64,000 bases of DNA from Sphingomicrobium astaxanthinifaciens (GTDB lineage Bacteria > Pseudomonadota > Alphaproteobacteria > Sphingomonadales > Sphingomonadaceae). Of the stretch, positions 57,071-60,417 are shown in pieces. How positions within the stretch are numbered: the first letter of the stretch is position 1; each line of letters begins with the position of its first letter. Under the pieces are notes generated by a model. It was given only the letters and a program-made list of their open reading frames with translations. It searched no databases and was not told where the DNA came from. Made by a program: the position numbers and the translations under genes. Location: NCBI RefSeq assembly GCF_022865105.1, contig NZ_JAKNYM010000002.1, forward strand, positions 1,087,501 to 1,151,500. Direction: 5' to 3'.

Positions 57071-57146
57071 TGGTGAGCCGTGCAGGGGTCGAACCTGCGA
57101 CCTACTGATTAAAAGTCAGTTGCTCTACCAACTGAGCTAACGGCCC
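57071..57146 (-). tRNA. tRNA-Lys (anticodon UUU)
   Basis: On the minus strand the cloverleaf is clear: acceptor GGGCCGT/ACGGCTC, D-arm GCTC-AGTTGGTA-GAGC, anticodon stem ACTGA/TCAGT with loop CTTTTAA (anticodon TTT), variable AGGTC, T-arm GCAGG-TTCGACC-CCTGC, discriminator A and encoded CCA (57071-57073). It recognises AAA and AAG codons. Confidence 0.97.
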
Positions 57147-57199: not shown

Positions 57200-57691
57200 T
57201 CAGTTTTTGCGCCGCGCCCGCCGGAGCCGCGCCGCGAGGTGACGCAGCGCGAGCCCGCCGGTGATCCGCCAGTCGGGCGCGATCTGCGCGAGCGGGACGA
57301 GCGCGCTCGCACGTTCGCCCAGCGCGGCGTGGGGAATGGTCAGCGCGCGGCCGTGATAGTCGCCCCCGTCCCAGGCGAGGATGTCGAGGTCGAGCACGCG
57401 CGGGCCCCAGGCCTTGCCCGGGCGGCGGCCAAATTCGTGCTCGATGAATTTCAAGCTCGCGAGCATCGCCTCGGGCTCGAGGTCGCTCTCGACGATCGCG
57501 GCGGCGTTGGCGAAGTCGCGTCCGGCGCCGCCGAAGGCGGGGTTGAGGAGGATGGGGGAGGCGTCGAACAGCTCGTGGTCGCGCGCCAGCCGCGCGATCG
57601 CCGCCTCGACCACCGCGGCGGGGCGACCGTGGCGCGGGTGCACGCGATTCGAGCCGATGCCGATGCCGTAGACATGCTTGCTTGCGGTCAT
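57200..57691 (-). CDS. folK: 2-amino-4-hydroxy-6-hydroxymethyldihydropteridine diphosphokinase
   Basis: FolK pyrophosphorylates hydroxymethyl-dihydropterin in folate synthesis. The 163 residues have IGIGSNRVHPRHGRP, LLNPAFGGAGRDFANAAAIVES, RRPGKAWGPRVLDLDIL (the HPPK signature) and LTIPHAALGERA. The start of the family, YGIGIGSN, fits ATG 57691. Divergent from the UDG-GNAT gene. Confidence 0.93.
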   Translation of the reverse strand: MTASKHVYGIGIGSNRVHPRHGRPAAVVEAAIARLARDHELFDASPILLNPAFGGAGRDFANAAAIVESDLEPEAMLASLKFIEHEFGRRPGKAWGPRVLDLDILAWDGGDYHGRALTIPHAALGERASALVPLAQIAPDWRITGGLALRHLAARLRRARRKN

Positions 57692-57809
57692 TTACGCTCG
57701 CTCCTCCAGCCGTGCCGCGCTCGCGCGCGCGCCCCGTCCTTAGAGCGGTCGCATGAAAAGGGAAGAGAGGCCTTTCCCAAGGTCCTCGCGGCGCGGTAGG
57801 GATCGGCGC

Positions 57810-58979
57810 ATGTCGCATGTCTCGCCCGCCGATCTGTCCCCGCTCCCCACCGCCGAACCGCCCCGCGACTGCCCGCTATGCCCGCGGCTGGTCGACCTGC
57901 GGGTGCGGCTGCGCCGCGAGCATCCCGACTGGTACAACGCCCCGGTGCCCGCGTTCGGCGACCCCGGGGCGGGGGTGGCGATCATCGGGCTCGCGCCGGG
58001 CAAGCAGGGCGCGCATCGCACCGGGCGTCCCTTCACGGGCGATTATGCGGGCGACCTGTTGTTCGACACGCTGATGCGGGTCGGGCTGTCGGTCGGCCGG
58101 TATGACAGCCGGATCGACGACGGGGTCGAGCTGAAGGGCGCGATCATCCTCAACGCGGTCAAGTGCCTGCCGCCCGAGAACAAGCCGACGGGGCAGGAAA
58201 TCCAGCACTGCCGCCCCTTCCTCGAGGAGATGCTCGGCCAGCTGCCCGGCGTCCACACGCTGTTCGCGCTCGGCAAGATCGCGCATGACGCGGCTTGCCG
58301 CGCGCTCGGCATGACGCTCAATCGCAACAAGTTCGGGCATGGCAACGTGCATCATGCCCCGAACGGGCTGCGGCTGGTCGATAGCTATCATTGCAGTCGC
58401 TACAACCAGAATACCGGGCGATTGTCCGACGAGATGTTCCTGATGGCGCTGCGCAAGGCGGTCAGCCCGGGGCTCAAGGGCGAGCCGGCGGAGGAATTGC
58501 GCACCGAGCGGCTGGTGCTGCGCCGCGCGCGGCCCGACGACGCCGAAGCGCTGCACCGGCTGTTCACCGACGAGGAGACGATGCGCAGCTGGTCGACCAC
58601 CGTGCACGACACGATGTTCGAGACGCAGGAATGGCTGCGCGGCATGATCGAGGCGGCGGGGCCCCATTCGGACGATTTCATCGTCGAGAAGGACGGCGAG
58701 CTGATCGGCAAGTGCGGGCTGTGGGACGTGCCCGAGATCGGCATGATGATCCGCCGCGAGGACTGGGGGCAGGGGTACGCCACCGAGGCGCTCGCCGCCT
58801 ATCGCGACTATATCCGCACCCGCGGGCTGCGCTACATGTTCGCCGACGTCGACCCCGCCAATGTCGGCTCGTTGAAGGCGCTCGAGAAGGTCGGGTTCAC
58901 CCGCTCGGGCTACAAGGAAAAGGCGATGAGGCACGGCGACCGCTGGGTCGACAGCGTGTATTTGCGGATCGACCTCTAG
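57810..58979 (+). CDS. Uracil-DNA glycosylase (family 5-like) fused to a GNAT acetyltransferase
   Basis: A 389-residue two-domain protein. Residues 1-225 are a 4Fe-4S uracil-DNA glycosylase: cluster cysteines C21 and C24 in RDCPLCPR, C119 in NAVKCLPPENKP and C134 in HCRPFL; motif GLAPGKQGAHRTGRPFTGDYAG at about 60 on, in which the acidic residue of motif A is absent as in family 5 (UdgB); and YHCSRYNQNTGRL near 193. From about 228 (ELRTERLVLRRARPDDAEALHRLF) it is a GNAT domain with acetyl-CoA segment RREDWGQGYATEAL. UDG excises uracil from DNA; the GNAT substrate is unknown. The join is in one uninterrupted frame. Confidence 0.88.
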   Translation: MSHVSPADLSPLPTAEPPRDCPLCPRLVDLRVRLRREHPDWYNAPVPAFGDPGAGVAIIGLAPGKQGAHRTGRPFTGDYAGDLLFDTLMRVGLSVGRYDSRIDDGVELKGAIILNAVKCLPPENKPTGQEIQHCRPFLEEMLGQLPGVHTLFALGKIAHDAACRALGMTLNRNKFGHGNVHHAPNGLRLVDSYHCSRYNQNTGRLSDEMFLMALRKAVSPGLKGEPAEELRTERLVLRRARPDDAEALHRLFTDEETMRSWSTTVHDTMFETQEWLRGMIEAAGPHSDDFIVEKDGELIGKCGLWDVPEIGMMIRREDWGQGYATEALAAYRDYIRTRGLRYMFADVDPANVGSLKALEKVGFTRSGYKEKAMRHGDRWVDSVYLRIDL

Positions 58980-59563
58980 TCGAGCGAGCGCATCGCCGCA
59001 TAGTCGAGCGTGCGGAACAGCAGCAGCAGCATTGCCAGCGGCGCATCGACCGGCGCCCCGGGGGCGAGCGCGAGCTGGCCGCGCGGTGCCGGACCGCCGC
59101 GCAGCGCGGCGCGGATCGGCGCGAGCAACCCGGACAGGCGGCGCGGCGCCGGCTCGGGCCGCCGGGTCGAGCCCAGCACGCGATCGCCGTCGACGAGCAG
59201 GAGGTCGCTGTCCATCAGCGCCTCGAGCGCCCGCGCCGCGCCGGCGCGTCGCGACAGGCCGCTTGGTGGCACCAGCTCGAGCCAGGGGCGGCGCGCGCCG
59301 TCCTCGAGCACGAAGCCGCGGGTGCGCAGCGCCGAAGTGAGGCGCGGGACGACGATCGCCGCGCGCGGCGTGCCGCCGACGTCGAGCGCGATGCGCGTGC
59401 CGCGGCGCTCGATCCGCCCCACGTCGGCTCCGTCGCGATCGACCAGCGTGGCCGCGCGCAGGTAGCGCGCACGCGCCATCCGCGCGACGAGCAGCGGGAC
59501 CCCCGCGGCGTCCTCGAGCCGGAAGTCGGTGCCCTCGCGCCAGAGGCGGTAGGCAGGATCCAT
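58976..59563 (-). CDS. Hypothetical protein downstream of aguB
   Basis: A 195-residue soluble protein rich in Arg, Leu and Ala. The first half alternates beta-like stretches (VPLLVARMARARYL, IALDVGGTPRAAIV) reminiscent of an LURP/scramblase-type fold, but this is only an impression. Its ATG overlaps the aguB stop (TGATG), so it is likely translated with aguAB. Its end overlaps the UDG-GNAT stop by 4 bases on the other strand. No function is proposed. Confidence 0.6.
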   Translation of the reverse strand: MDPAYRLWREGTDFRLEDAAGVPLLVARMARARYLRAATLVDRDGADVGRIERRGTRIALDVGGTPRAAIVVPRLTSALRTRGFVLEDGARRPWLELVPPSGLSRRAGAARALEALMDSDLLLVDGDRVLGSTRRPEPAPRRLSGLLAPIRAALRGGPAPRGQLALAPGAPVDAPLAMLLLLFRTLDYAAMRSLD

Positions 59564-60417
59564 CACAGGTCCTGCGCGAGCCGTCCGTAGAGTTCGGGGC
59601 GGCGGTCACGGAAGAAGCCGAATGCGGCGCGGTGCTGGCGCACCCTGGCGATGTCGAAGCTGGCGGTCAGCACGCCCGTCTCGGTCGCGCCGAATTCCTC
59701 GACGATGTCGCCGCGCTCGTCGCAGATGAAGCTGTGGCCGTAAAAATGCTGCCCGCATTCCTCGCCGATGCGGTTGGCGGCGACCACGGGAACCACGTTC
59801 GAGACCGCATGGCCGATCATCGCGCGGCGCCACATCCGACTGGTGTCGAGCGTGGGGTCGTGCGGCTCCGAACCGATCGCGGTCGGGTAGAAGAGGATCT
59901 CTGCCCCCAAGAGCATCATCGCGCGCGCGGTCTCGGGGTACCATTGGTCCCAGCAGATGCCGACCCCCATGTGGCGTTCGCCGGGGCCCTTCCAGACCTT
60001 GAAGCCGGTGTTGCCGGGGCGGAAATAGAACTTTTCCTCGTACCCGGGACCGTCGGGGATGTGACTCTTGCGATAGACGCCCGCGATCCGTCCCCCCGGT
60101 GCGATCCAGGCGAGCGAATTGTAATGATGCGGCCCGTCGGCCTCGAAGAAACTGGTCGGGATCCAGATCGACAGTTCCTCGGCGAGCGCCTGCATCGCGC
60201 GCACGCTCGGGTGATCGGCGGTCGGGCGCGCGCCCGCGAACAGCGCCTCGTCCTCCTCGCGGCAGAAATAGGGGCCCTCGAACAGTTCGGGAGGGAGCAC
60301 CACCTCGGCGCCCTTGCCCGCCGCCTCGCGCACCAGCTCGGTGACGTTGGCGATATTCTCCTCGACCCCGCCGCCGAGCGCGAGCTGGAGGGCGGAGACG
60401 GTGATCTTGTCGGTCAT
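59563..60417 (-). CDS. aguB: N-carbamoylputrescine amidase
   Basis: A 284-residue nitrilase-superfamily enzyme that turns N-carbamoylputrescine into putrescine. The catalytic triad is expected at E44 in LPPELFEGPYF, a lysine in YRKSHIPDGPG and the cysteine in GVGICWDQWYPE. GSEPHDPTLDT and MWRRAMIGHA are typical AguB blocks. It overlaps aguA by 4 bases (ATGA), giving consecutive pathway steps. Confidence 0.95.
   Translation of the reverse strand: MTDKITVSALQLALGGGVEENIANVTELVREAAGKGAEVVLPPELFEGPYFCREEDEALFAGARPTADHPSVRAMQALAEELSIWIPTSFFEADGPHHYNSLAWIAPGGRIAGVYRKSHIPDGPGYEEKFYFRPGNTGFKVWKGPGERHMGVGICWDQWYPETARAMMLLGAEILFYPTAIGSEPHDPTLDTSRMWRRAMIGHAVSNVVPVVAANRIGEECGQHFYGHSFICDERGDIVEEFGATETGVLTASFDIARVRQHRAAFGFFRDRRPELYGRLAQDL

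Follow-up and report, generated by a model that had tools for sequence, protein, structure and literature searches.

The UDGb of Thermus thermophilus (2d3y), a family-5 uracil-DNA glycosylase for which the available portion of PMC5387724 gives N120 as catalytically important, is a protein of 219 aa without an acetyltransferase domain, unlike the fused protein described here. A UDG-superfamily domain is likewise found within a longer chain in UdgX-type proteins with an extra domain, but that extra part is N-terminal, whereas the acetyltransferase of the fused protein is C-terminal, and the KRRIH loop that marks UdgX, according to the accessible part of PMC10359453, is absent from the fused UDGb. 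RimL/RimJ, BlmB, SpeG and the Bacillus protein 3fbu have the same fold over the whole GNAT acetyltransferase domain (Z about 20-23), the solved Acetyltransf_3 relatives listed are 14-32% identical to it, and none of the solved GNAT entries listed is described as joined to a DNA glycosylase. E. coli topoisomerase I, as covered in the available text of PMC5983628, provides a precedent for acetylation altering a bacterial DNA enzyme. We find no description of a UDG-acetyltransferase fusion in the portions available from the open-licence literature, outside which most subscription journals lie; PMC3747172, a text match, concerns an unrelated protein. Judged by its sequence, the gene is a new and conserved combination of known domains, a fusion carried by a single clade with unfused counterparts in the same genus.

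The fused gene and its two domains

The window, a 64,000-nt stretch of the Sphingomicrobium astaxanthinifaciens genome (2.24 Mb, two contigs), carries the fused UDGb-GNAT gene at 57810-58979 (+ strand, 389 codons plus stop), in a frame ending at 58979 that has no internal stop whether it is opened at 57753 or at 57810. The in-frame ATG at 57753 would give an alternative product of 408 aa; we consider 57810 (389 aa) the likelier start codon, since a start codon stands at the same residue in most of the aligned relatives, two of which, G017 and G018, lack any other 5' of it. For G012, translation has to begin about ten codons upstream of the residue aligned with 57810. A sequence-only reading of this DNA had described an in-frame fusion of a family-5-like glycosylase with a GNAT acetyltransferase, both intact in their motifs, and our analysis bears this out: one open frame holds both Pfam domains, and 11 genomes carry the fusion at full length; the best solved relative of the glycosylase half is 2d3y; and the Fe-S cysteines, UDG motifs and acetyl-CoA loop all look intact. 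The domain junction falls at residues 220-228 (linker, 58467-58493, + strand), slightly 5' of the 58480-58520 given earlier, and this linker is constant in length in 11/11 fusions and less conserved in sequence. An AlphaFold2 model of the fusion built on a 70-row alignment has a mean pLDDT of 93.3 and a pTM of 0.90, with its lowest-confidence ten-residue block (73) at residues 191-200 and junction blocks of 93-94.

The glycosylase domain occupies residues 1-219 (57810-58466, + strand) and matches UDG PF03167 over residues 48-215 (E 2e-24; 86.7 bits vs a Pfam cut-off of 24.3). In a sequence search of solved structures, Thermus thermophilus UDGb is found at E 3.8e-45 vs 7.6e-07 for the best family-4 entry, and the structure match to 2d3y (Z 28.8 over 210 residues, model residues 11-221) likewise exceeds that to family 4 (Z 21.7); the NCBIfam models for family-4 UDG score below their cut-offs on this half. 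The closest characterised relative of the UDG half is UDGb, and not family 4 or UdgX. Four cysteines, C21 and C24 (57870-57881), C119 (58164-58166) and C134 (58209-58211), all on the + strand, are invariant across eight aligned fused proteins and match the cysteines of 2d3y; we take them to be the predicted ligands of an Fe-S cluster. Both active-site motifs align with those of the Thermus protein, which is alike in its four cysteines, its GLAPG and HxSRxN motifs and its catalytic Asn. The first, GLAPGKxGAxRTGRPFTGD (residues 60-78, 57987-58043, + strand), is invariant in the eight proteins except at the two x positions, while the second, HCSRYN (residues 194-199, 58389-58406, + strand), and N124 (58179-58181, + strand), the equivalent of Thermus N120 in the alignment with 2d3y, are invariant in all eight. 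We expect this half to excise uracil from DNA.

The acetyltransferase domain, at residues 229-389 (58494-58976, + strand), matches Acetyltransf_3 PF13302 over residues 234-364 (E 6.9e-29; 101.7 bits vs a Pfam cut-off of 25.4), and its modelled fold (residues 223-389) is matched by RimL (1s7l, Z 22.8) and BlmB (2zw6, Z 22.5), with 3fbu tied at Z 22-23. These predicted resemblances do not give the acceptor of the GNAT half. By sequence, a Bacillus GNAT and BlmB, the bleomycin acetyltransferase, are its best solved relatives. All NCBIfam models stay below their cut-offs on both halves of the fusion, and the GNAT half is a member neither of the BlmB exception model (51.7 bits vs a cut-off of 625) nor of the RimJ equivalog PRK10809 (26.1 bits vs 190). 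The segment WGQGYA (residues 319-324, 58764-58781, + strand), which we presume to be the acetyl-CoA-binding loop, has W319 and G322 invariant in the eight aligned fused proteins. This half would be expected to transfer acetyl from acetyl-CoA to an amine.

Distribution and origin of the fusion

Full-length, stop-free matches to the fused gene, 65-91% identical, are present in ten other genomes of the genus, and the aligned region measures 389 codons without gap or stop in 11/11 fused genes. This confirms the observation: the fusion is no sequencing error, and it is not peculiar to a single genome. A search of 71 genus genomes at E <= 1e-20 gave matches in 65, which we sorted by row into arrangements. 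Eleven of the 71 carry the full-length fusion (G000, G001, G002, G012, G017, G018, G034, G196, G201, G263 and G346); 19 have UDG and GNAT as neighbouring but separate genes, two have them near each other (about 0.24 and 1.26 kb apart), and three have both genes but apart. UDG occurs without a close GNAT match at this threshold in 26/71, some of these on truncated contigs, and GNAT without a UDG match in 4/71, so that the partnership is not obligate; six genomes, four of them <80% complete, have neither gene. The genus thus has both the fused and the unfused state, which disposes of the earlier concern that relatives might hold two separate genes and never a fused one. Named carriers are Sphingomicrobium lutaoense (DSM 24194), S. 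nitratireducens and a metagenome-assembled 'Sphingomonas sp.'; full-length fusions make up 3/80 of the named contigs kept, and none adds a genome beyond the 11.

Outside the genus, none of the UDG matches listed in the order, class and phylum samples runs on through GNAT. The UDG region is matched in 24/24 genomes of the same-order sample, with a full-length fusion in none; among the matches listed for the class (194 of 289 genomes with a match) and the phylum (111 of 349), only the window's own genome is full length, and in the class listing any full-length fusion should outrank the UDG-only rows. The window's genome has three UDG-superfamily matches, of which the fused gene is one. Another is a UdgX-type protein (L300, G000:C2:616359-616841) in a 487-codon ORF with a long N-terminal part; it carries GEQPG together with KRRIH, both of them UdgX marks in the accessible part of the source cited above.

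Across the loci compared, the usual order in the genus is folK(-), UDG(+), optional GNAT(+), aguB(-), aguA(-), rpsD(-). In the window, the divergent upstream neighbour is folK (HPPK, PF01288, 57200-57691, - strand), which tblastn synteny places beside the locus in relatives too. Unfused pairs typically show an 8-nt overlap of the GNAT start with the UDG stop, e.g. GTGGTTGA, and since this overlap recurs in many relatives the two genes are probably co-translated there. The GNAT frame is +1 relative to UDG in 15/15 unfused pairs measured (of 19). In these 15 pairs, the MF codon of UDG and the TxRL codon of GNAT lie 49, 55 or 58 nt apart, mostly 58 and always 1 mod 3, vs 69 nt in 11/11 fusions. 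The frames were thus joined by a net gain, of about 11 nt relative to the commonest spacing, rather than by a simple loss of the stop. The fusion would thus descend from two adjacent genes with the GNAT start overlapping the UDG stop, the gain having bypassed that stop in the clade ancestor and brought GNAT into frame. An open frame of 387 in G291 looked like a second, independent fusion but is none, since a stop closes the UDG there and the GNAT is read in a different frame.

We built an rpoB tree from 56/71 genus genomes, with reading frames chosen by similarity, leaving out 15 in which rpoB was unmatched or was matched only in part or in split form. In it, the fused genomes, 11 in all, group as one clade with 100/100 support and no unfused member. 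This tree needs a single origin of the fusion, which would lie in the ancestor of the 11-genome clade. The earlier suggestion of a recent gene fusion is therefore only partly right, since within this clade identity between GNAT domains has fallen to as little as 50%. G001 is represented in the tree by a second, partial rpoB copy; this assembly has two rpoB matches, one of which groups outside the genus, probably through assembly contamination. The fused GNAT domains also form one clade in a GNAT tree (100/100). The best such tree joins it to copies that lie elsewhere (94/89), and a tree constrained to hold all UDG-locus copies in one clade is not rejected (p-AU 0.288); the adjacent and the fused GNATs may thus have come to the UDG locus once or separately. 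At two loci (L114 in G013 and L137 in G175), UDG is missing and GNAT alone fills the interval from folK to aguB; one of the two genes can thus occur there without its partner.

Genomic neighbours, selection and possible roles

We favour, with modest confidence, a reading in which two adjacent genes have given rise to a single-chain, two-activity enzyme with halves functionally tied in DNA maintenance. Uracil, and probably further deaminated bases, would be excised from DNA by the N-terminal UDGb domain; the C-terminal GNAT would use acetyl-CoA to acetylate an amine of some acceptor; and fusion would have fixed 1:1 production of both activities, an arrangement retained since. That both halves are catalytic and tied in function is what we infer, and the tie would most likely be acetylation that serves DNA maintenance, directed at a protein or at a small molecule that damages DNA. 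The sequence-only reading had put forward, as candidate targets, a repair partner or the glycosylase itself. The natural series from separate, overlapping genes to a clade-wide fused enzyme names a pair of activities worth joint testing, and the fusion may offer an entry to the question of whether bacteria employ acetylation in base-excision repair.

The main competitor, which we regard as a real possibility though one short of an even chance, is that two active enzymes with unrelated jobs were joined by way of their overlapping genes and kept as harmless, the GNAT being, for example, one that detoxifies small molecules or antibiotics. The presence of the bleomycin acetyltransferase BlmB among the closest solved sequence relatives is in keeping with this, as is the occurrence of the GNAT without UDG and at many unrelated loci; against it stands the aligned region, in which 11 diverged genomes show no stop and no change of length. 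The remaining evidence on this point comes from the genes beside GNAT relatives. Close relatives (E <= 1e-40) are patchily distributed, in 38/397 genomes of the family (ten in the window's genus) and in 41/195 genomes of one further genus. Pfam identifies topoisomerase I and DprA next to the GNAT relative in G204 and G758, topoisomerase I next to a GNAT copy in G025 of the window's genus, RecQ in G149 and G280, UvrD helicase in G343, ComEC in G918, G842 and G886, DnaA in G797, and MutL about 0.4 kb away in G775. Overall, DNA-maintenance genes lie beside GNAT in 10/35 genomes outside the genus, or 6 of about 19 distinct settings, a grouping of our own that includes genus GNAT copies away from the UDG locus. 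Pfam confirms at least one DNA gene in each of the 10 positive genomes, as well as topA in G025; G792, with topA one gene further away, was left out of the count. The remaining settings, which are the majority and so lean towards an incidental fusion, hold metabolic, transport or unfamiliar genes; in this first set, non-DNA neighbours were mostly scanned once per setting, the rest being named from the start of their sequences or not named at all. In two of the ComEC genomes (L290 in G918 and L305 in G842), the GNAT relative sits between comEC and lexA, both Pfam-confirmed.

DNA-maintenance neighbours are commoner here than at control GNAT loci, a difference seen after the fact that speaks against an incidental fusion. 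Among the controls, handled in the same way, 0/33 lie beside DNA genes, or 1/33 under a loose definition that counts the PF03372 (endo/exonuclease/phosphatase family) neighbour of L319. Pfam scanning covered 40/66 of the control neighbour ORFs and assigned no family to 15 of these 40; the control is the weaker for it, as some of its ORFs may have been called wrongly. Going by how their sequences begin, most of the unscanned ORFs resemble LysR or L27. In a further 37 genomes, sampled afresh, most settings repeated the PF03641/ThiD and DnaJ ones already seen or varied them on one side; uvrD turned up once again (L353), and a DNA gene in 0/4 settings new on both sides, one of which (L378) has a PF00149 phosphoesterase neighbour; over all 72 genomes together the count is 11/72. 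Binomial P values for 6/19 settings are 6e-4 at a 6% base rate and 0.009 at 10%, and for 6/23 settings 0.002 and 0.023, both base rates being guesses. Fisher tests by genome give p 0.0009 for 10/35 vs 0/33, 0.006 vs 1/33, and 0.016 for 11/72 vs 0/33; neither genomes nor settings within a lineage are independent, and we framed the test with the data already in view. We therefore treat the DNA-maintenance neighbourhood of GNAT, noticed after the fact, as suggestive only.

A bolder extension, which we think improbable, is that a roving acetyltransferase family, placed across the Sphingomonadaceae beside UDGb, topA/dprA, recQ, uvrD, comEC/lexA, dnaA or mutL, acetylates DNA-handling proteins of this kind, and that it is covalently tethered in this clade to a glycosylase so as to deliver acetylation to sites of uracil repair.

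Selection bears on a further alternative, in which the GNAT half is catalytically dead and merely shapes or stabilises the glycosylase. The GNAT half does diverge faster than the UDG half (median pairwise identity among fusions of 59% vs 79%), and E replaces the first loop glycine in the fused proteins of G017 and G263; against this alternative, dN/dS over seven pairs is low for GNAT (0.10-0.25) as for UDG (0.05-0.21), so that both domains look to be under purifying selection, and the loop and core residues are common to unfused relatives. We consider a dead GNAT very unlikely. An assembly or sequencing artefact masking a stop or frameshift, a danger raised earlier and one that a single indel error could create given the unfused frame offset, is refuted by the same fusion in 11 separately assembled genomes, with an identical aligned length of 389 codons and no stop, and has a negligible chance of being right.

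Returning to the locus, we find no sigma-70-like promoter in 57500-59100, and GTTC-N7-GTTC, which we assume as the SOS box motif, has one match in the window, far from the fused gene and not above chance. The sole tRNA found in the window, a tRNA-Lys (ttt), lies at 57071-57146 (- strand). Between the fusion and aguB is an ORF of 196 aa (58979-59566, - strand) with no Pfam match, and tblastn finds it in the same place, among the loci compared, in G346 (38% identity) and G018 (34%).
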